Origin: an uncultured Eubacteriales bacterium
Lineage (GTDB): Bacteria; Bacillota; Clostridia; Christensenellales; Aristaeellaceae
Assembly (NCBI GenBank): GCA_902765305.1
Contig: CACWZI010000022.1
Coordinates: forward strand, 26,391 to 90,390
Reading direction: 5' to 3'
DNA length: 64,000 nucleotides
Below the pieces are notes generated by a model. It was not told the DNA's origin. It saw only the letters and a list, made by a program, of their open reading frames with translations, and searched no databases. Position 1 is the stretch's first letter. Every line of letters starts with the position of its first letter. Positions 54,893 through 63,334 of this stretch are shown here, in pieces. The translations under genes were made by a program, and so were the position numbers.

Positions 54893-55072
54893 AAATACTG
54901 ATTTATCGGGGAGAGGGGGAGCCCTATCCCCCGCTTCGCGGGTACTTCCCCACTGCGGTGGGGAAGCTTATATTGCGCACTTCAACCGGCTCTTTAGCTT
55001 CCCCACCGCAGTGGGGAAGTGGCCCGAAGGGCCGATAGGGCTCCCCTTTCATAGCTCGACAAATCAGTATTT
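54893..55072. mobile_element. ATACTGATTT-bounded element, copy E (180 bp)
   Basis: AAATACTGATTTATCG on the left and CGACAAATCAGTATTT on the right enclose nested inverted repeats: GGGGGAGCCCTATC/GATAGGGCTCCCC outermost, then CTTCCCCACTGCGGTGGGGA against TCCCCACCGCAGTGGGGAAG. It fills the gap between the PHP gene and the GH2 gene and overlaps the GH2 stop codon (TAA at 55073-55071). Confidence 0.75.
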
Positions 55073-57692
55073 ATACGACCGGCAGCTCGAGTGTCGCCTC
55101 TCCGACGCCTTCGGCAGTCACCTTCAATCGGGCCGTGCCGGACTGATACCCCGACCGAAGCACCGCCAGCGCCGTGCCGCAATGGCTGACGCATTCGCCC
55201 CGGGCATAGTTGTCGTCGGTGATGGGATTGCCCGAACCCATGCCCAGCAGACGCGCCGCGCCGGTCACCCCGGCTTTGAGCGCCACCCTGGCGTCCGGGA
55301 CCCGCCTGCCCTTTGAATCCACCAGCTCGATACGCACATAGCCCAGCGATTCCCCGTCCCCGCGCAGGGCGCCGGTCTCCGGAACGAGCCGGACCTTCGT
55401 CGGCGCGTCCGCCGTCTCCAGCTTCGCCCTTGAAACCTCCCGCCCGCCGGTATAGCTCACGGCCTCCAGCGTGCCGGAGGTGTAGGTGGTATGGAACAGG
55501 AAGCTCTTCGGCATGCCGTGGGCCTGCGCCTCGCCGGCGCGCACCCTGCCGGCGCTTTCCCCGTTGACCCGCAGTTCAACCGCCTCTGCCCCGCTGAACA
55601 CCAGCACGTCCACGCCCTGGCCCTCCTGCCCGCGCCAGGTCCAGCTGTCCCAGACGCCGGGGAAGCCCCAGCCCGACAGCACCTCCACCTTGCCGTAATC
55701 GTGGGGGTCGTAGCTGAACACGGCGGTCTCCGCGCTGCCCCAGACGATTCGGCGATAGACGCCCTGAGGCCGCACCGCGCCGGTGATGTCAAAGTCGGCG
55801 TCGTTCGCCAGCCGCCACGGGAAGGGCGCGCCGATGATCCAGGGGCTCGCGCCGTCCTTCATGGCGGGGTCCTCCGGGTCATAGAAGGTGGCCCTGCCGA
55901 TGCCCGCCTCGCCGATGTAATCCCAGGCCGTCCAGGTAAATTCGCCGATCACCCAGGGCGTGCGCTCGATCATCGGCCAGTGGACGCCCACCTGCACGGG
56001 ATAATTCTCGGAGCCCAACATCACCCGCTCCGGGAAGAGCCCGTGGTCCTGGGCATACCTGTCCTCCAGGTAGTTGTAGCCCACCACGTCCAGCCCGTTG
56101 GCGAAGGCTTCAGTATAGCGCTCCCACTGCAGATCCTCCGGGCCGCCGGCGTCGGCGTTTTGCAGGCTGCCCTCCCCGCGCCATTTGCGCAGCTGGTTGG
56201 CCATCAGCACGTCGTCCAGGCCGTTCCAGAAGGAGCAGATGCCGTTGGAGACGAGGCGGCTGGGGTCCAGCGCCCGGACGGCCTCCGCCAGTCGGGTCGC
56301 CCACAGATAACCGTCGTTCAATCCCGCCCGCTCGGTGATCTCGTTGCCGGTGGACCAGAGGATCACGCTGGGATGGCAACGATCCCGGCGCACGAAGGCG
56401 GCGAGGTCCGCCTGCCAGTCGGATTCGAAGTACTGGTTGTAATCGCCGGGCTGCTTGCCCATGCCCCAGGCGTCGAAGGCCTCGTCGAACACGTACAGGC
56501 CCAGCCGGTCGCAGGCCTCGATCAGCGCCGCAGAGGGCGGGTTGTGGGTCGTGCGGATGGCGTTGAAGCCGAGGGCCTTCAGCTTCCGCACCTTCCAGGC
56601 CTCGGCGTCGTACAGGCTCACCGCCCCGATCACGCCGTTGTCGTGGTGCAGGCAGCCGCCCTTCAGCTTGACGGTCCTGCCGTTGATCCGCAGGCCGTGC
56701 TTCACGTCCGCCTCGACGGTGCGGATGCCGAACAGCACGTCCTCTTCATCCACCGTCGGGCTGTCGGTGGGAATGATGCGGGTCCTGTAGGCGCCCGCGT
56801 CCTTCACACGCGCCGAGAGGCGGTAGAGGTTGGGTTCCTCGGCGCTCCACAGCTTCGGGGCGTCCACGGTGAGGGTCATGTAGGCCGTCGACGCGCCCAG
56901 CGGCGGCACCTGGGTAAGCGTCCCTGCGCTGTGCACCGCTTCGCCGGTGGCGTCGTCGATCAGCTCAAAGGTCACCTCGGCCAGTCGGCTCTCCGCCCAT
57001 TCGTTGCCGATCTCAGCGCTGACCTTCAGGAAGGCGGTCTGTGCGACGCCGTCTCCTAAAGGACTGGCTTCGCGTCGCCCTTGTAGCGGCGGCCCTAAAG
57101 GACTAACTTCGTGTCGCAATCTGCCGCCATGTGGCGCCTGATAGGCACCGCTACATGCTTCGCGTCGCGGGGCGTATTCGATCTTTTGCGCATAGCCGGA
57201 CAGGCCCTCGAAAGCGATATGCAGCTTCGGCATGTGGACCAGCGCCACGCCCCTGAACAACCCCGCCCCGGAATACCAGCGGGAATTGGGCTGCATGCTG
57301 GGGTTCACCGTGATGACGACGGTATTCGCCTCGCCGGGATAGACCAACCGGGTGATGTCCACCTCGAAGGGCGAATAGCCGTAGTGGTGCAGCGCGGCCT
57401 TGGCTCCGTTGACCTCGACGGTGGCGTTCATCATCGCGCCGTCCAGCCGCAGCGCGATCCGCTCCCCCGCCCATTCGGCGGGGATGTCCAGCTGCCGCCA
57501 GTAGTGGGCGACGCCGGCGTTGAAATAGCCGCTGGCCGGCCCCGAGGGCGCTTCGGCATAGACGTCGCTCTCGATCATGTAATCGTGGGGCAGGTCCACG
57601 ACGCGTTCCTTAAGCTCGCCGGTCAGGCGCCGGTTGTTGTCGATGAGTCCCCGGCCGAAGCGCCAGCCCCGGTTGATATTGATACACCGCAT
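55071..57692 (-). CDS. GH2-family glycosidase (beta-galactosidase-like) carrying repeat-derived insertion
   Basis: An 873-residue GH2 enzyme: sugar-binding domain (VDLPHDYMIESDVYAEAPSG, NSRWYSGAGLFRGVAL), immunoglobulin-like domain, then the TIM barrel with HDNGVIGAVSLYDAEAW, FNAIRTTHNPPSAALIEACD, the acid/base in LWSTGNEITERAG and the probable nucleophile in IGEFTWTAWDY. C-terminal DUF4982-like region. Residues about 180-211 (RREACSGAYQAPHGG..., RHEVSPLG, RREASPLG) are encoded by nested mobile repeats at 57054-57167 and interrupt the immunoglobulin-like domain without breaking the frame. Start ATG 57692 follows GGGAGGG. No signal peptide. Exact substrate (galactoside or other) is uncertain. 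Confidence 0.9.
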   Translation of the reverse strand: MRCININRGWRFGRGLIDNNRRLTGELKERVVDLPHDYMIESDVYAEAPSGPASGYFNAGVAHYWRQLDIPAEWAGERIALRLDGAMMNATVEVNGAKAALHHYGYSPFEVDITRLVYPGEANTVVITVNPSMQPNSRWYSGAGLFRGVALVHMPKLHIAFEGLSGYAQKIEYAPRREACSGAYQAPHGGRLRHEVSPLGPPLQGRREASPLGDGVAQTAFLKVSAEIGNEWAESRLAEVTFELIDDATGEAVHSAGTLTQVPPLGASTAYMTLTVDAPKLWSAEEPNLYRLSARVKDAGAYRTRIIPTDSPTVDEEDVLFGIRTVEADVKHGLRINGRTVKLKGGCLHHDNGVIGAVSLYDAEAWKVRKLKALGFNAIRTTHNPPSAALIEACDRLGLYVFDEAFDAWGMGKQPGDYNQYFESDWQADLAAFVRRDRCHPSVILWSTGNEITERAGLNDGYLWATRLAEAVRALDPSRLVSNGICSFWNGLDDVLMANQLRKWRGEGSLQNADAGGPEDLQWERYTEAFANGLDVVGYNYLEDRYAQDHGLFPERVMLGSENYPVQVGVHWPMIERTPWVIGEFTWTAWDYIGEAGIGRATFYDPEDPAMKDGASPWIIGAPFPWRLANDADFDITGAVRPQGVYRRIVWGSAETAVFSYDPHDYGKVEVLSGWGFPGVWDSWTWRGQEGQGVDVLVFSGAEAVELRVNGESAGRVRAGEAQAHGMPKSFLFHTTYTSGTLEAVSYTGGREVSRAKLETADAPTKVRLVPETGALRGDGESLGYVRIELVDSKGRRVPDARVALKAGVTGAARLLGMGSGNPITDDNYARGECVSHCGTALAVLRSGYQSGTARLKVTAEGVGEATLELPVV
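57054..57167. repeat. Nested repeat cluster inside the GH2 gene
   Basis: Two full 24-bp units (57054-57077 and 57093-57116) and a partial one (57157-57167). The second unit splits a palindromic repeat exactly between GTAGCGGCGG (57083-57092) and CAATCTGCCGCCA (from 57117); deletion of the 24 bases recreates the sequence found intact at 63127. The palindromic repeat closes with GGCACCGCTACA at 57144-57155 and is itself flanked by pieces of a further 24-bp unit. All lengths keep the GH2 frame open. Confidence 0.85.
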
Positions 57693-57756
57693 GTGTTTTC
57701 CCTCCCGCTTTTTTGCCGCACAGGGGCAGCCATTTGGAAATAAGTCCTGGCACAGT

Positions 57757-58278
57757 TTACCCGTGTACCTCGATCCTCGGCAGGACGGCGTCGATATCCA
57801 CAAATCCGACCCTTTTGTCTCCCCGATCCAGGTAGACCGGCACCTCGAAGCGAAGCGAGTCCTTTAGGGCGTTGCCGGTCAGGAGCGGCTCCACGTTGAA
57901 GTAAAGGTTGCGGCTGTAAAAGACATGGACCGTACCGGTATCCGGGTCCGTCCAGTGGACCTCCACCACCATCGGGTGTGTGCCGTTCACGTTGACGCGC
58001 GTGTTGACCCTGCAGCCGGCCACCCTACCCATCACGCAGTAGCCGCCCTCGTAGGCCGCGCGCTGCCTGGCGCGTCGCCGCAGCTCCATTCCCAGCAGGA
58101 CCAGTCCCACCGCGAGGAATACGCCGCCGATGCCGACAAAGCAGATCAGGAAGGCGAGGCGCTCGTCAGAGGCCTGGACAGAGCCATTAAACAGCAGGCC
58201 CACAACCAGGAATATCAGCCCAAAGGGCGCAAATATCCCCCCGATGATCCCCTTCTCCGTCCATCCGTATCGCTTCAT
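57757..58278 (-). CDS. Small membrane protein (DUF3592-like)
   Basis: A 173-residue protein with two membrane helices (GIIGGIFAPFGLIFLVVGLLF and FLICFVGIGGVFLAVGLVLL), a basic stretch ELRRRARQR, and a soluble C-terminal domain (VEVHWTDPDTGTVHVFYSRN) resembling DUF3592. Function unknown. The start is chosen at ATG 58278 (MKRYGWTEKG) as the first position where the sequence looks like this family; ATG 58296 is possible. It is 64 bases upstream of the GH2 gene on the same strand. Confidence 0.6.
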   Translation of the reverse strand: MKRYGWTEKGIIGGIFAPFGLIFLVVGLLFNGSVQASDERLAFLICFVGIGGVFLAVGLVLLGMELRRRARQRAAYEGGYCVMGRVAGCRVNTRVNVNGTHPMVVEVHWTDPDTGTVHVFYSRNLYFNVEPLLTGNALKDSLRFEVPVYLDRGDKRVGFVDIDAVLPRIEVHG

Positions 58279-58368
58279 ATCCGTCACCGTACCCATTCGA
58301 TTGCACGTTCTGCCATCATTATAGCAACAGAGTGAGGCTTTGTCCACATAAAAAACCGGAGGGATGGA

Positions 58369-58411
58369 CATATACTGATTTATCGGGCTTTGCTCGATAA
58401 ATCAGTATATG
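58369..58411. repeat. Solo ATACTGATTT palindrome (43 bases)
   Basis: CATATACTGATTTATCG and CGATAAATCAGTATATG pair perfectly around a nine-base loop. This is the minimal form of the terminal hairpins of elements A-C, with no core. It overlaps the 3' end of the FGE fusion gene: the TGA stop at 58404-58402 is part of its TACTGA. Confidence 0.8.
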
Positions 58412-60384
58412 CCATTCTCCTCCAGCCAAGCGGCCACATCCTCGGACAGTGTCGATCCGCCGGAATAGTGGATGGAAAGGCCCTGGCCCAGGTTGGATTG
58501 GGGGGCCAGCTTGGCGATGGCCGTCAGGCTCTGGCCGAAGCGACCGCCGCCGTGGGAGCAGAAGGGAAGGATGCGCTTGCCCGAGAAGTCGAAGGCTTCC
58601 AGAAAGGATGCGATGGGCATGGGGATGGACGCCCACCAGTTGGGATAGCCCAGCAGGATGGTGTCATAGACGTCGAGGTTCTCCGGAAGGCCGGCGATCT
58701 CAGGCCGCGCCTGGGCGTGCTGGTCCCGCTGGGCCTCTACCAGCACGGTGTCGTAGTCGTCGGAATAGGCGGGTATGGGCTCGATCTCGAACAGGTCGAA
58801 GCCGGTCTGACGCTGGATTTCCCGGGCGATGCCCCGGGTGTTGCTACCCCAGGAGAAGTAGGCGATCAGCGCCCTGCTGTCGTCGGACGTGGAGGGAATG
58901 CCGCCCGAAGCGACAACCGAGCCCGCGATGCCCGCCCCGGCGTTGCGCACCAGGCGCACGCCCAGGTTGTAGCTCTTCATGTCGGCCTGGCCCGCCGCGC
59001 GGTAGGCGCTGCGCATGTTCTTGCCGAAGTCGTTCCAGCCGCCGCCCCGGTAGACGTGGCGGGTGCCGGTTTCAGCGCCGGTGGGGTTGTCGGTGTTTTC
59101 AAGGTCATAGGGGCCGTACCAGTCCCAGCACCACTCGTTGACATTGCCATGCATGTCGTACAGGCCCCAGGCGTTGGGCGCAAAGCTGCCCACCGGCACG
59201 GTCTTGCCGCGATATTCGCCCGGCCGGGCCTCCAGAACGGAATCGTCGAAGTAGTTCTCCTCGATCTCGTAGGGATAGTGGCCGTAGAAGTTGGCGTCGT
59301 CCGCGTCCAGCGAGCGCTCCAGGTTGAAGGGCGTGGCCGTGCCCGCCCGGCGACGCGAAGCTAGTCCTTTAGGGCAGGCATATTCCCACTCCGCCTCGGT
59401 GGGCAGGCGGTAGCCGTCGGCCGCGCGGTCCCAGGTGACGGCATCGCCGTCGACGACATAGGCCGGCGTCAGCCCTGCCGCCGCGCTTTTCGCGTTGGCG
59501 TAGAGGATCGCGTCCAGCCAGGAGAGGTTCTCCACGGGCAGGTCGTCCCCGACGAAGGTGCTGGGGTTACCGCCCCGACGCGAAGTTAGTCCTTTAGGGA
59601 TCACGGCCGCCCATTCGGCCTGGGTGGTCTCACGGGGATCGATGCAGAAGGCGGCTACGGTCACTTCATGCTGCGTCTCGTCGTCGATGCGCCAGTTTTC
59701 GTCCGCCGGACTGCCCATTTGGAAGACGCCGCCCTCGACGCGGACAAAGCCGTCGTCGACGGAGGGGGACAAGGATTCGGTTTTTTGTACGGATCCCACT
59801 GCAGGCTCCTGTTCCGCTTCTCGCTCCGACTCAGCCTCCTGCCACGGCGTTTCCATGGCGTCGCCCCAGCCGGAGCCAAAGCCAAAGTTGTTCCGGTTCG
59901 GCCATATCGTGTTCAATACCAGGCCGATCACGATTGCTGCCAGCACCAGCGTCACCGGCATGATGGGATTGCCCTTCTTCCTGCACAGCAGCGCCGCCTG
60001 GCAACCCACAAAGGCCCAGAACAGCAGCATGGCCACGTTCTCCAGCAACACCAGCGCCCCGGCCTTTTCATAGTCCAGGAAGGCGAAGGGCACCCGGAAG
60101 AACAGGTAGTTGGGCATGCCGCAGAAGGCCGTCAGCGCAAAGGACGCCAGCAGCAGCACGTTCACGCAGGTGGAGGCCACGCGATAGGCCGTGTACCTGC
60201 CCTTGAGCATTGCCCCGTACCAGCGCCGGTTGAGGATCTGGTGGACGATGACCAGCGCGGTCATAGCCATGCCCAACCACTCGTGGGCGGCCTCCCCCAT
60301 CACCTGGTAGGCCATCTGCAACAAAAGGAGGACGGTCATGCCGATGTCGATGATCCTCCGCGTATTGCCCTGGCGCGTCTTCAT
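58402..60384 (-). CDS. DUF4405 membrane domain - FGE-sulfatase domain - flavodoxin fusion with two 8-residue repeat insertions
   Basis: A 660-residue three-domain protein. Residues 1-175: four or five membrane helices with paired His (EAAHEWLGMAM, VIVHQILNR), as in cytochrome b-like DUF4405. About 210-480: formylglycine-generating-enzyme-like domain (VEGGVFQMGSP, LPVENLSWLDAILYAN, GYRLPTEAEWEYAC, DMHGNVNEWCWDWY, YRGGGWND). About 500-660: flavodoxin-like domain (ALIAYFSWGSNTRGIAREIQ, DTILLGYPNWWASIP). PKGLTSRR and PKGLASRR are inserted in FGE motifs: excising each 24-bp unit gives AVMGGNPS and EYACRAGT. A membrane redox role coupled to flavin is inferred. GGAGGAC precedes ATG 60384. Its stop lies inside a repeat hairpin. 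Confidence 0.82.
   Translation of the reverse strand: MKTRQGNTRRIIDIGMTVLLLLQMAYQVMGEAAHEWLGMAMTALVIVHQILNRRWYGAMLKGRYTAYRVASTCVNVLLLASFALTAFCGMPNYLFFRVPFAFLDYEKAGALVLLENVAMLLFWAFVGCQAALLCRKKGNPIMPVTLVLAAIVIGLVLNTIWPNRNNFGFGSGWGDAMETPWQEAESEREAEQEPAVGSVQKTESLSPSVDDGFVRVEGGVFQMGSPADENWRIDDETQHEVTVAAFCIDPRETTQAEWAAVIPKGLTSRRGGNPSTFVGDDLPVENLSWLDAILYANAKSAAAGLTPAYVVDGDAVTWDRAADGYRLPTEAEWEYACPKGLASRRRAGTATPFNLERSLDADDANFYGHYPYEIEENYFDDSVLEARPGEYRGKTVPVGSFAPNAWGLYDMHGNVNEWCWDWYGPYDLENTDNPTGAETGTRHVYRGGGWNDFGKNMRSAYRAAGQADMKSYNLGVRLVRNAGAGIAGSVVASGGIPSTSDDSRALIAYFSWGSNTRGIAREIQRQTGFDLFEIEPIPAYSDDYDTVLVEAQRDQHAQARPEIAGLPENLDVYDTILLGYPNWWASIPMPIASFLEAFDFSGKRILPFCSHGGGRFGQSLTAIAKLAPQSNLGQGLSIHYSGGSTLSEDVAAWLEENGIY
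59351..59374. repeat. 24-bp unit inserted in the FGE-domain gene (site 1)
   Basis: Plus strand begins CGACGCGAAGCTAG and ends TCCTTTAGGG. On the coding strand it adds PKGLASRR between C and RAGT of the conserved WEYACRAGT motif. Removing exactly 24 bases restores TAT GCC TGC CGG GCG GGC ACG. Confidence 0.9.
59576..59599. repeat. 24-bp unit inserted in the FGE-domain gene (site 2)
   Basis: Begins CGACGCGAAGTTAG and ends TCCTTTAGGG. Coding strand reads GTG ATC + PKGLTSRR-encoding bases + GGC GGT AAC; excision yields GTG ATG GGC GGT AAC CCC (VMGGNP), the usual FGE motif. The insertion thus also changed Met to Ile. Confidence 0.9.
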
Positions 60385-60398
60385 GCTCTGTCCTCCTG

Positions 60399-61337
60399 TT
60401 TCGCGTAGCGCTCTCCTTCCCCGCCAACGCGATCTACAACGCCGGCGCGGCGCTGTATCGCTCCATGGGCAAGACCCGCACCACCATGCTCGTCTCCGCG
60501 GGCATGAACCTGATCAACGTGATCGGCAACGCCATCGGCGTGTTCGTGCTCAGGGCCGGCGCGGCGGGCGTCGCCTGGCCGACCACGATCTCCTGGATCT
60601 TCGCCGCCATCGCCATGACCGCGCTGTGCCTCAGCGAAGAGAACCGCGTCTTTGTCCGCTTCAGGGACATGCTGCGCCCGCAGCGGGAAATGGCATGGCG
60701 CATACTGCGCGTCGCCGTACCCAACGCCGCCGAGCAGGTGCTGTTCCAGCTGGCCAAGGTGGTGCTGGGCTCCCTGATCGCCACCTTCGGCACGTCGCAG
60801 ATCGCCGCCAACGGCATCGGCCAGACGCTGTGGTCGCTGCCCGCCTGTATGTGCACGTCCATGAGCCCGGTGTTCATCACCGTGGTTGGGCAGTGCATGG
60901 GCGCGGGCGACGCCGACGCCGCGGCCTGGTACATGCGGAAGCTGACGCGGCTGTCGCTTATGCTGTCCACGCTGTGGAACGCCCTGGTGCTGCTGCTGGT
61001 GCCTGCGATCCTGCCGCTGTACGCCGTCACCCCCGAGACCCGGCACTACATCTGGGTCATCGTCATCATCCACAACGTCTTTGCCGCGCTGGTGCAGCCC
61101 TTCGCCATGCCGCTGTCCTCCGGCCTGCGCGCCGCGGGCGACGTCCAGTTCAGCCTGTGGTCCTCGCTGCTGTGTACGGTGGTATTCCGCACGGCACTCT
61201 CCTTCATCCTGGGCCTGTGGCTGAATATGGGCATCGTCGGCATCGCCTGGGCCACGGTGCTGGACTGGTGCCTGAAGGCGCTGATGGACGTGCTGCGCTT
61301 CTCCAGCGGAAAATGGCGGGAAAAGAAGCTCATCTGA
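60399..61337 (+). pseudogene. 5'-truncated MATE-family transporter
   Basis: The frame encodes the C-terminal two thirds of a MATE efflux protein, from FRVALSFPANAIYNAGAALY (about residue 140 of a normal protein) through NAAEQVLFQLAKVVLGSLIA to the end. The first four or so helices are missing; homology stops where the divergent fusion gene begins (its ribosome-binding site at about 60390). An internal ATG at 60465 could start a 290-residue product but it would lack the N-terminal half of the bundle. Probably a deletion remnant. Confidence 0.75.
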
Positions 61338-61384
61338 GCAAGAGCCGATCGACGCCATAAGCTTATGGATCACGAAAAATACAG

Positions 61385-61413
61385 TTGATAGAGAGGTGAA
61401 GATATGATAAAAT
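61385..61413 (+). promoter_or_regulatory. Promoter of the hybrid histidine kinase pseudogene
   Basis: TTGATA (61385-61390), 17-base spacer, TAAAAT (61408-61413), 56 bases before ATG 61469. Confidence 0.55.
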
Positions 61414-61601
61414 CATAATAAGCATCAAATGCCGGATAAACGCCTCGACGGCAAGGGAGTGAAGCGCAATGGCACCGGCCATCCACATCGAGCTCGACGC
61501 GCTGTGCCTGATACTGCTCTGCACCATCGCGATGCAGAGCTGGCAGAGCGTCAACCAGCAGAAGGACCGCATACTGTTCCGGACGACGGCCTACGGCATC
61601 A

Positions 61602-61625
61602 CGACGCGAAGCTAGTCCTTTAGGG
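61602..61625. repeat. 24-bp unit in kinase pseudogene (site 1)
   Basis: Inserted between GGCATCA and TACTGCTTCTC. Introduces TAG in the kinase frame. Precise removal restores the membrane-helix frame. Confidence 0.9.
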
Positions 61626-61691
61626 TACTGCTTCTCGCCCTCGATATCCTGTGGGTGCTGATCGAGGGGCGCCAATTCCCCGGCGTCGTCG

Positions 61692-61715
61692 CCCTAAAGG
61701 ACTAGCTTCGCGTCG
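61692..61715. repeat. 24-bp unit in kinase pseudogene (site 2, inverted relative to site 1)
   Basis: Reads CCCTAAAGGACTAG... on the plus strand. It forms an inverted pair with the unit at 61602 around 66 bases. It marks the junction of a deletion, because the frames left and right of it do not join after excision and the His-box region is absent. Confidence 0.85.
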
Positions 61716-62119
61716 GAACATCTCCGATCACACCCGGGAGGAGCTGGACAAGATCGGCTCCAGCGCCCGGCACCTGCTGGCGCTCATCAACGACATACTG
61801 GACATGAGCCGCATCGAATCCGGGCGCATGGTGCTCAAGGACGAGGCATTCTCCTTCCGGGAAATGATCCGGCAAATCAACGTCATCATCCACGGGCAGT
61901 GCGCGGACAAGGGGCTGGATTTCGTCTGCAACCAGGTGGAACCCCTGGACGCGTACTTCTCCGGCGACGACCTGAGGCTCAAGCAGATCATCATCAACAT
62001 ATTGGGCAACGCCGTCAAGTTTACCGACGCGCCGGGAACCGTCACCTTTACCGTCGCGCAGCAGGATGCCCCGGACGGACGGGCGATCATGGGCTTCACG
62101 GTGAAGGACACGGGCATCG

Positions 62120-62143
62120 CCCTAAAGGACTAACTGCGTGTCG
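62120..62143. repeat. 24-bp unit in kinase pseudogene (site 3)
   Basis: Inserted in ACG GGC ATC G / GC ATG GAC CCC. Variant with CTGCGTGTCG at the end. It brings a TAA into the frame; removal restores the ATPase G1-box region TGIGMDP. Confidence 0.9.
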
Positions 62144-62768
62144 GCATGGACCCCGCCTTCCTGCCGAAGCTGTTCGACCCCTTTGCCCAGGAGGACGCCA
62201 CCACCACCAACCGCTACGGCGGCAGCGGCCTGGGCATGGCCATCACCAAAAACATGGTCGACCTGATGGGCGGTCAGATCGACGTGGAAAGCGAAAAGGG
62301 ACGCGGCACGACCTTCACCGTCCACATCCCGCTGAAAAAGGCCACGCATGTGACAGACGCGCCGGAGGCGGAAACGCCGGTCCTCACGCTGGCAGGGCTG
62401 CACATGCTGATCGCGGAGGACATGGCGCTGAACGCGGAGATCCTCACGGACCTGCTGGAGATGGAGGACGTCACCTCCGAATGGGCGGAAAACGGCCGCC
62501 GGGCCGTGGAGATGTTCGAGGGCAGCGCGCCGGGCCACTTCTCCGCGATCCTGATGGACATGCGCATGCCGGTCATGGACGGTTTGGCGGCGACGCGGGC
62601 CATCCGGGCGCTGGACAGGCCAGACGCCGCCACCATACCCATCATCGCCCTCACAGCCAACGCCTTCGAGGAGGACGTGCGGCAGTGCCTCCAGGCAGGC
62701 ATGAACGCCCACCTTTCGAAGCCCGTGGAAATGGATCAGCTGAAGGCGGCGCTGCGACGCGAAGCTAG

Positions 62769-62860
62769 TATAGCGTCTTTAAATTAACTGGACTGTATAA
62801 TCTGTGATATTGTTGATTTTTCTCGATCCATATGGTCCAGTTTATTGTCGAACGCTATAT
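62769..62860. mobile_element. 92-bp MITE inserted into a 24-bp unit
   Basis: Ends TATAGCGT and AACGCTATA are inverted; subterminal AACTGGAC and GTCCAGTT are also inverted, giving about 30-base imperfect arms. TAG flanks both sides (62766-62768 and 62861-62863), a probable 3-bp target duplication. The flanks 62755-62768 and 62864-62873 join into one complete 24-bp unit. The interior is AT-rich and non-coding, so mobilisation would need a transposase elsewhere. Confidence 0.85.
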
Positions 62861-62863
62861 TAG

Positions 62864-62953
62864 TCCTTTAGGGCGACGCGTAGCTAGTCCTTTAGGACGA
62901 TGCGTAGCTAGTCCTTTAGGGCGACGCGAAGCTATTCCTTTAGGGCGACGCGA
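62864..62953. repeat. Head-to-tail tandem array of 24-bp units
   Basis: The second half of the MITE-split unit (62864-62873) is followed by three full units (62874-62897, 62898-62921, 62922-62945) and a partial one (62946-62953). Units differ by one to three substitutions (CGACGCGTAGC, CGATGCGTAGC, TATTCC). Same orientation throughout. Confidence 0.9.
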
Positions 62954-62960
62954 ATTCGGT

Positions 62961-63334
62961 AAATACTGATTTGTCGAGCTGTTGGTGGAAAAGCAAAGGG
63001 TAGTACAAAGGGAACAGGGAACAGTCAACAGGGAACAGGAAAAGCCGCGCACGGAATGTTGCAGCCAGAACGAACGAAGGGAACATTCCCGCGACAAAAA
63101 ATGAAGTATAGAATCCTTGAAAGTCCTGTAGCGGCGGCAATCTGCCGCCACGGCATTCTTATCGGCTGGGAACGGTGGCAGCGCAGGTGCCGCGACACGA
63201 AGTTAGTCCTTTAGGGCGACACGAAGTTAGTCCTTTAGGGCCGCTACAACTCGTACGTTATCAATATGTTCGCGGCAGCCGCCATTCCTTTTCCCTGTTC
63301 CCTGTTCCCTCGTCTCCCCGACAAATCAGTATTT
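62961..63334. mobile_element. ATACTGATTT-bounded element, copy F (374 bp) with GGGAACA heptamers
   Basis: AAATACTGATTTGTCG (62961) and CGACAAATCAGTATTT (to 63334) are inverted ends. Just inside the left end are GGGAACA heptamers (about four, one varied), and just inside the right end their inverse, CCCTGTT, two to three copies. The core contains the TGTAGCGG palindromic repeat with two 24-bp units. The plan (inverted end, heptamer run, core, inverse heptamer run, inverted end) matches copies A-C although the heptamer is different. Confidence 0.75.
63127..63246. repeat. TGTAGCGG...CCGCTACA palindromic repeat containing two tandem 24-bp units
   Basis: Begins TGTAGCGGCGGCAATCTGCC near 63127 and ends CCGCTACA near 63248. 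Two identical 24-bp units, each beginning CGACACGAAGTTAG, lie at 63193-63216 and 63217-63240 immediately before the closing CCGCTACA. The left half preserves the uninterrupted sequence that is split by a unit at 57093. Confidence 0.8.

Follow-up and report, generated by a model that had tools for sequence, protein, structure and literature searches.

The 24-nt sequence CGACGCGAAGCTAGTCCTTTAGGG, here called the unit, occurs thirteen times between positions 57054 and 63240 of a 64,000-nt stretch of DNA (the window) from an uncultured Eubacteriales bacterium (contig CACWZI010000022.1). The repeat is real, and the reading that we favor, at a probability of about 0.7, is that the unit is a non-autonomous mobile module resembling the small dispersed repeats (SDRs) of cyanobacteria, one that probably moves by way of single-stranded DNA hairpins with the help of an enzyme acting in trans. 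An earlier note on this DNA had proposed a 24-bp mobile unit that inserts precisely into genes and is translated as an eight-residue peptide, and that interpretation is partly supported. Below, G-numbers denote genomes, with G000 for the host (an assembly of 3.88 Mb in 177 contigs), and L-numbers denote fetched stretches.

Copies, empty sites and carriers of the unit

At no more than three mismatches, the threshold applied both to the window and to the whole G000 genome, the thirteen copies start at 57054, 57093, 57846, 59351, 59576, 61602, 61692, 62120, 62874, 62898, 62922, 63193 and 63217, nine on the forward strand and four on the reverse. One hundred dinucleotide shuffles gave a mean of 0.00 copies, and the claim of at least 13 copies, in both orientations and single or in tandem, stands. 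The unit measures exactly 24 nt, with no spacer between tandem copies; the ends are constant, as the earlier note had it, save for the final A in 2 of the 13. The description of a cluster within about 6 kb is right for these copies but not as a local feature, since the whole-genome search that the note had put forward as a check returned 153 copies (86 and 67 on the two strands), with none for the reversed control. Examined in detail were 104 G000 copies, taken at up to five mismatches from the window and 40 further stretches, which together hold 51 single copies and 19 multi-copy arrays. A variable-number tandem repeat, grown at a single locus, was considered and is ruled out by the 51 single copies.

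The notion that excision of exactly 24 bases restores the interrupted genes is borne out by homologs that lack the unit at 59351, 59576, 61602 and 62120. The same-genus homologs were gathered with a single DNA query spanning 55000-63300, which yielded no aligned row at 57846 or 61692. At 59351 the unit is absent from all five aligned homologs, whose net gap is 24 nt, and at 59576 a clean 24-nt gap is seen in four of five, the fifth being ragged. The unit is likewise missing from four homologs at 61602, where the alignment is ragged, and five of the seven aligned at 62120 (L250-L252, L254 and L256) have a clean 24-nt gap, the other two again being ragged. None of the aligned rows carries the unit at any of these four sites. 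A 114-bp block at the first two unit positions, within a glycoside hydrolase gene, is missing from all five aligned homologs, one of them with its gap split 81+33. The earlier note had held that orthologs carrying the same eight residues at the same positions would speak against mobility; no unit was found in the aligned same-genus homologs at the four window sites or in one family of solved structure.

Empty sites are also found within genomes. When unoccupied copies of several unrelated host repeats are set against occupied copies in the same genome, the difference is exactly 24 nt, and the empty junctions of sister repeats include GGCGGCAGATTG^CCGCCGCTAC and GGAAATCGCTTG^CGATTTC. The palindrome that surrounds the copy at 57093, said to be intact once the unit is taken out, does exist in empty form elsewhere in the G000 genome. 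In G085, a metagenome-assembled genome (MAG) of the Lachnospiraceae, the hairpin CCCGTGCCAAACA-G^CGAG-TGTTTGGCACGGG is present both filled and empty, with at least 27 empty places. Taken as comparisons of sequence, these cases give good support to exact insertion of a 24-bp module.

A second host repeat of G000 consists of an AAATCC-GTA-AGGATTT hairpin, then the unit, then CTCC or CACC, and is found genome-wide with and without the unit (L189 2072, L193, L196, L202, L203, L206, L209, L210, L218-L223 and L226); several units at this hairpin carry T15C. In the G085 stretches L296-L302 the unit at the hairpin tip is nearly constant and the stems differ by compensating changes (CCAAACA/TGTTTGG, CCGGACA/TGTCCGG).

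Occurrence of the unit is very sparse. Among 28 genomes of the genus, G000 with its 153 copies and G025 with 170 stand beside six with one to three copies and 20 with none, and the unit (≤2 mismatches) is in 0 of 390 other genomes sampled from the host class. A scan of the genome_contigs collection with a pattern of 21 fixed positions, for which about 0.12 matches would be expected by chance in 257 Gb, lists at least 110 stretches, so that carrier lists drawn from it are incomplete. By their titles, at least 28 of the matches listed are cyanobacterial, at least 17 belong to Negativicutes and at least 63 to Clostridia (19 of these from G025). The cyanobacterial carriers among them are Xenococcus, Hyella, Pleurocapsa, Myxosarcina and their kin; one Spirochaetia and one Akkermansia MAG are also listed, with a single copy each for which contamination is possible. 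Cultured isolates are among the carriers, namely Anaerovibrio lipolyticus DSM 3074 (12 copies) and Hyella patelloides LEGE 07179 (79 copies), and the unit is on a complete plasmid of Chondrocystis NIES-4102, whose record files the organism under Chroococcales. Of 14 records matched in a plasmid search, only the two Chondrocystis plasmids seem genuine, the better of them an exact match. Three IMG/VR contigs match the unit, and a phage search gave no match at E≤10.

In a sample of the cyanobacterial phylum centered on G066, 1 of the 291 other genomes carries the unit at ≤2 mismatches. A looser cyanobacterial pattern hit 6 of 292 genomes and its reversed control 4 of 292, which places three single hits at background; only G267 adds to the carriers G066 and G068. 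G267 has GCGNAGCGTCTCCTTTAGG four times, which hints faintly that a broader family of this layout may exist in cyanobacteria. That distant phyla share identical letters, and that the unit is so sparsely distributed, suggests horizontal spread.

Mini-hairpin and target sites

Of 252 copies with different contexts, 244 have positions 5 and 11 of the unit in Watson-Crick pairing (G-C in 204, A-T in 39, C-G in one), as do 63 of 70 distinct unit sequences, and both main alleles, G-C and A-T, are found in Clostridia and in cyanobacteria. The pairing was not imposed by the collection, since the pattern was free at both positions and the genome searches counted mismatches only. Positions 7-10 were fixed in the scan pattern, so its loci say nothing about them in the matched copy. 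In the G000 stretches, chosen by ≤3 mismatches, position 8 is A in 86 copies, C in four, T in three and G in three, and position 9 is A in all 96. This is the variation predicted by the GNA rule, set out in PMC4686876, where the GCGAAGC DNA mini-hairpin is described as extraordinarily stable, with a melting temperature of 78 C and resistance to nucleases. At the level of sequence, then, these copies show that the unit keeps a pairable GC-GNA-GC mini-hairpin. Covariation was shown for the single pair 5-11 and not for the outer stem or a second hairpin.

The sites of insertion were compared in a set of 136 non-redundant sites, from which copies less than 40 nt from the end of a stretch, with N in the flanks or adjoining another unit had been dropped, as had copies whose flanks matched within 6 of 24 letters. 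The 42 sites of other bacteria outside the genus follow the form (T/C)TG^C, with a pyrimidine at -3 in 40, G at -1 in 39 and C at +1 in 30. At 10 of these 42 the junction lies in the loop of a perfect stem of at least 6 bp, compared with 44 of 1631 random positions in the same loci (p 3.5e-7), where the control positions lie mostly outside repeats and three stem thresholds were computed. Looser hairpin scores agree in direction, and an offset profile within the same flanks peaks at the junction. The G025 sites are in hairpin loops in 2 of 12 cases (p 0.03). REP-like palindromes, that is, those resembling repetitive extragenic palindromic (REP) sequences, are frequent targets. GCG^NAGC, the loop of related repeats, accounts for 8 of 42 cyanobacterial sites and occurs 43 times in 140784 positions (26 loci). 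In the cyanobacterial stretches L177, L132 and L135, related but distinct repeats such as GCGNAGCGGTATCCTTTAGG adjoin the unit.

The base at -1 of the G000 sites is G in 24, C in 9, T in 4 and A in 3 (n=40), with no fixed flanking tetranucleotide. Target-site duplication in the host genome was considered and rejected, the flanks differing at the two ends (for example catca^tactg). The earlier note's statement that no such duplication is visible is thus upheld for the host, with a reservation for cyanobacterial sites, where a 1-nt duplication is possible: unlike in the host genome, the last base of the unit there usually equals the upstream base (G,G 34; A,A 4; n=42).

Reading frames of host genes

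Many copies of the unit lie within genes that remain open. An automatic codon-usage rule that scores the flanks only finds 13 coding sites in eight genes among the G000 stretches, and the host frame is open across the unit at 12 of them, in seven of the eight genes (p 3e-4 by site and 0.014 by gene); the control is the 43% of six frames that are open across 45 arrays outside the curated coding set. Hand curation gives 20 open sites of 25 (p 1.8e-4), or 20 of 26 (p 5e-4) if L213:2001 is added, a site counted as coding only by a rule with 180-nt flanks; the 25 were picked partly by eye after the peptides had been seen, with 61692 entered as closed, which is not so of the 13 automatic sites. The frame compatibility of genic copies is supported genome-wide, as an outcome of selection. 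The enrichment of open frames inside genes that the earlier note had anticipated is found, and a unit readable as eight residues is supported genome-wide but fails in a kinase gene of the window, taken up below.

Open hosts whose family matches exceed the curated cut-off are the FGE-sulfatase/flavodoxin and GH2 genes of the window, GMP synthase, melibiase, GH3, a DUF2201 VWA-like protein, a GDSL-type hydrolase and a PucR-type regulator with a unit array. The GMP synthase shows a clean insert of eight residues against PDB 7sbc, the placement of the gap being less clean against 5tw7. A 971-codon open frame in L205 has four open insertions and a GH2 barrel match just below the cut-off; two of its insertions lie in the frame closed by the canonical unit and are opened through changes at positions 20-21. 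L197 has a weak family match only, and L224 aligns with acyl-ACP (acyl carrier protein) thioesterases as far as the edge of its array. Altogether five open sites are in frames that the canonical unit would close, each opened by a substitution: T12G at 57846 and L207:2276, T19A at L204:2044, T20C or A21G at L205:2711, and T20A at L205:3662.

The GH2 glycoside hydrolase gene of the window (55071..57803, reverse strand; Pfam GH2 domains) is open across its 114-bp block. The copy at 57054 is not a lone unit but the first part of a composite, 57054-57167, made up of a unit, a palindrome with a unit inside and a part unit, the three unit segments all on the reverse strand. The first unit (57054..57077) has two mismatches and reads RREASPLG in the gene. 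The palindrome (57078..57156) is REP-like, of the GTAGCGGCGG...CCGCCA type, and encloses a unit of the A-T allele (57093..57116) that reads RHEVSPLG; the part unit (57157..57167) comprises the first 11 nt, CGACGCGAAGC. On the forward strand, the unit at 57846..57869 lies toward the 3' end of a gene for a membrane protein, called by a one-flank codon score and by eye, and is stop-free through its T12G (ALKDSLRFE).

The gene at 58402..60384 (reverse strand), in which Pfam places an FGE-sulfatase domain fused to a flavodoxin, is open across two units, both on the forward strand and within the FGE-sulfatase domain. That at 59351..59374 is an exact consensus copy spanned by the Pfam match and reads PKGLASRR in antisense; that at 59576..59599 reads PKGLTSRR.

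The hybrid sensor kinase gene (61469..62787, forward strand), named by eye and in the earlier note, is broken. The unit at 61602..61625 (forward, exact consensus) adds an in-frame TAG, the frame reading TTRS*SFRV, and that at 62120..62143 (reverse, three mismatches) an in-frame TAA, reading ALKD*LRVG. A third, exact copy at 61692..61715 (reverse) stands where two parts of the kinase in different frames meet; the upstream frame meets a stop in it (ALKD*LRVG), the downstream frame runs through (PKGLASRR), and an internal deletion of the kinase may have occurred at this point. With two in-frame stops brought by units and its parts in different frames, the kinase is broken and lends no support to the claim of translation.

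Proposed movement, relatives and remaining window features

Under the reading that we favor, the unit would move as single-stranded DNA, protected by its own mini-hairpin, and an enzyme acting in trans would join it into exposed loops or nicks. Tandem arrays would grow through repeated insertion or slippage, and REPs and miniature inverted-repeat transposable elements (MITEs) that carry the unit would multiply it further. In genes, purifying selection would retain the copies that lengthen the protein by 8n residues and bring no stop, already dispensable genes such as the kinase being the exception. The hairpin-loop route is probably the one taken. A bolder version seems to us possible at somewhat less than even odds: an element among the smallest known, protected by the extra-stable GNA mini-hairpin and joined by the enzyme 3' of G in hairpin loops, would have crossed phyla as single-stranded DNA, burst in a few genomes and come to write eight-residue modules into even essential proteins.

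The nearest known kind is the cyanobacterial SDR, and the unit is set beside SDRs by its described features rather than claimed as a published family. Elhai et al., in 2008, reportedly described SDRs of 21-27 nt, and these are presumably confined to a coherent cyanobacterial subgroup. The earlier note's impression that the unit looks new is therefore right only in part. The likeness extends to size, to dispersal (153 copies in G000, 79 in Hyella), to precise insertion with empty sites and to nesting in other or related repeats (GCG^NAGC loops, REP-like hosts). The SDR structure backed by compensatory change may have a counterpart in the one pair 5-11, which covaries strongly, the thermodynamic fold being null. 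Precise insertion of SDR5 into HIP1 is described in PMC4390886. The unit differs from SDRs, and is novel, in its phylogenetic range (Clostridia and Negativicutes beside cyanobacteria of the Pleurocapsales type), in its identity across phyla and in its coding use, with many copies inside open genes. The letters of the unit turned up only once in the open-access literature, in an unrelated enzyme paper, and no account of the unit was found there.

Other short elements resemble the unit less closely. The IS200/IS605 elements and MITEs recognize single-strand hairpins, insert without target duplication and would look alike. The unit departs from IS200/IS605 in the lack of a fixed flanking tetranucleotide at G000 sites and in Y1_Tnp genes that are not in all carriers tested; assignment to IS200/IS605 or another MITE by a constant flank or target duplication was rejected for the G000 sites, with a 1-nt duplication possible in cyanobacteria. 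Rickettsia palindromic elements (RPEs), which are palindromic and longer than the unit, likewise insert into genes and are translated; the unit differs in having 24 nt, in its range over several phyla and in its tandem arrays. PMC3733652 names RPE-4 and RPE-6 of R. conorii as intragenic REPs. REPs and REPINs, the repeats of REP-associated tyrosine transposases (RAYTs), are also short, dispersed, hairpin-forming and non-autonomous, and REPs host the unit; as described in PMC3116915 and PMC3733652 they are palindromes of 20-40 bp with GTAG or CGTC heads, whereas the unit is headless and not palindromic. According to PMC3733652, REPs have inserted into palindromes in three species, and there are CGTC-type REPs with no transposase dedicated to them; by analogy, the former may be a partial precedent for the target and the latter for the missing enzyme.

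The enzyme itself was sought by testing families in 20 of the 43 carriers with copy counts (42 and G000), and none tracks the unit: neither Y1_Tnp nor RVT_1 is in every carrier, G099 has neither, and within the genus neither follows copy number. Y1_Tnp is in 16 of the 20, is missing from four and is also present in unit-free relatives; RVT_1 is in 17 (16 over the cut-off, G079 falling below it) and missing from three. These absences come from MAGs mostly without a completeness figure and weaken rather than exclude both enzymes. An all-against-all comparison of open reading frames at 139 loci found no recognized shared mobile gene, the largest cluster covering 16 loci. The lack of a matching enzyme weighs against our reading, as do several further results. 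Movement of the unit is inferred; copy number overstates insertion events, since many copies are carried by larger repeats, and the pair counts at 5 and 11 are not independent events, since copies are related by descent. ViennaRNA with DNA parameters gives the 24-mer no stable fold. Cyanobacterial sites are in hairpin loops in 4 of 42 cases with p 0.012 at ≥6 bp, the middle threshold alone being significant (p 0.13 at ≥5, 0.06 at ≥7), and in G000 the enrichment is not significant either for coding sites (2 of 25, p 0.18) or for others (2 of 15, p 0.08), so that the host genome falls outside what the loop rule explains. Cyanobacterial copies could be a 23-nt element with a 1-nt duplication. As to reading frames, an earlier rule with 180-nt flanks leaves seven of nine sites open (p 0.04), L213:2001 being the second closed one, and five curated sites are closed: three in the window kinase, one in L188 and one that ends the PucR-type gene (L190:2217). 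The L188 host is, by eye, a glycosidase.

An unlikely alternative, though the one that survives best, is that an HUH (Y1) transposase of the RAYT/IS200 kind moves the unit as a cut-down REP-like element that shares the enzyme with GTAG-tagged REPs. Targeting of single-strand hairpins is compatible with HUH chemistry, REP-like palindromes are often the target, and G000 and G025 have RAYT-length Y1_Tnp genes (three and two hits), which adds to the presence of the family in 16 of 20 carriers and to the REPs within palindromes described in PMC3733652. The unit nevertheless lacks a GTAG head, the four carriers without a Y1_Tnp hit include G085 with 76 copies, and G027 has nine Y1_Tnp hits and no unit. 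Four of five stretches around Y1 genes are without the unit at ≤5 mismatches, and the fifth, L293, holds two diverged units inside REPs.

Rather more doubtful is spread through an RNA copy and reverse transcription, a route that Elhai et al. (2008) are said to have suggested for cyanobacterial SDRs. The RVT_1 counts and the one covarying pair would fit it; against it, RVT_1 is absent from G025, which has 170 copies and is 92% complete, and from G097 and G099, the loop varies by the GNA rule of DNA mini-hairpins, and no longer source RNA was found, a search of the region against Rfam giving a single match far below its threshold.

We give slightly less credence again to the view that there is no transposition, and that template switching or break repair, aided by forks stalled at hairpins, copies the repeat while slippage makes the arrays. 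Hairpin tips are natural stall points, a unit sits at the apparent deletion junction of the kinase, part units exist and neither enzyme family correlates. The ends are constant at 24 nt at unrelated sites without common flanks, as would not be expected under copying by homology.

It is very improbable that the unit is an immobile functional motif, a protein-binding or RNA element selected at loop tips; the near-constant unit on compensating stems in G085 is what such selection would give, and it is set against the many empty hairpin copies in that genome, the two orientations, the many unrelated host genes and the relatives that mostly lack the unit. An assembly or adapter artefact is hardly credible, for although some copies are at contig ends, as expected of repeats, many are inside contigs with open reading frames running through them, and the isolate genomes and the complete Chondrocystis plasmid argue against an artefact of MAGs.

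If the unit is the mobile module that we take it to be, it would count among the smallest of mobile DNA elements and would provide proteins with in-frame variation by natural means, its genic copies indicating that a mobile element can give working enzymes short peptides without breaking them. To our knowledge SDRs have so far been a curiosity of cyanobacteria, without known machinery. The identical 24-mer in gut Clostridia and Negativicutes, the cultured A. lipolyticus included, offers a second, tractable setting in which to hunt for the enzyme, and the mechanism can be put to the test through the two base-pair alleles and the rule on loop targets.

The remaining copies of the window lie downstream of the kinase. 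At 62754..62873 (forward strand) a unit is split into halves, 62754-62766 and 62861-62873, by a miniature element, about 94 nt long and flanked by TA (about 62767-62860, ends TATAGCGT/ACGCTATA); the TA is duplicated, as it is with MITEs of the mariner/IS630 type. It is followed on the same strand by a tandem array of three units (62874..62945), which continues as a part unit to about 62954. A tandem pair of the A-T allele (63193..63240, forward) lies inside a REP-like palindrome (...GTGCCG^CCGCTAC). In the protein encoded at 58402-60384, the flavodoxin domain is C-terminal of the FGE-sulfatase, and apparent membrane segments precede the fusion.

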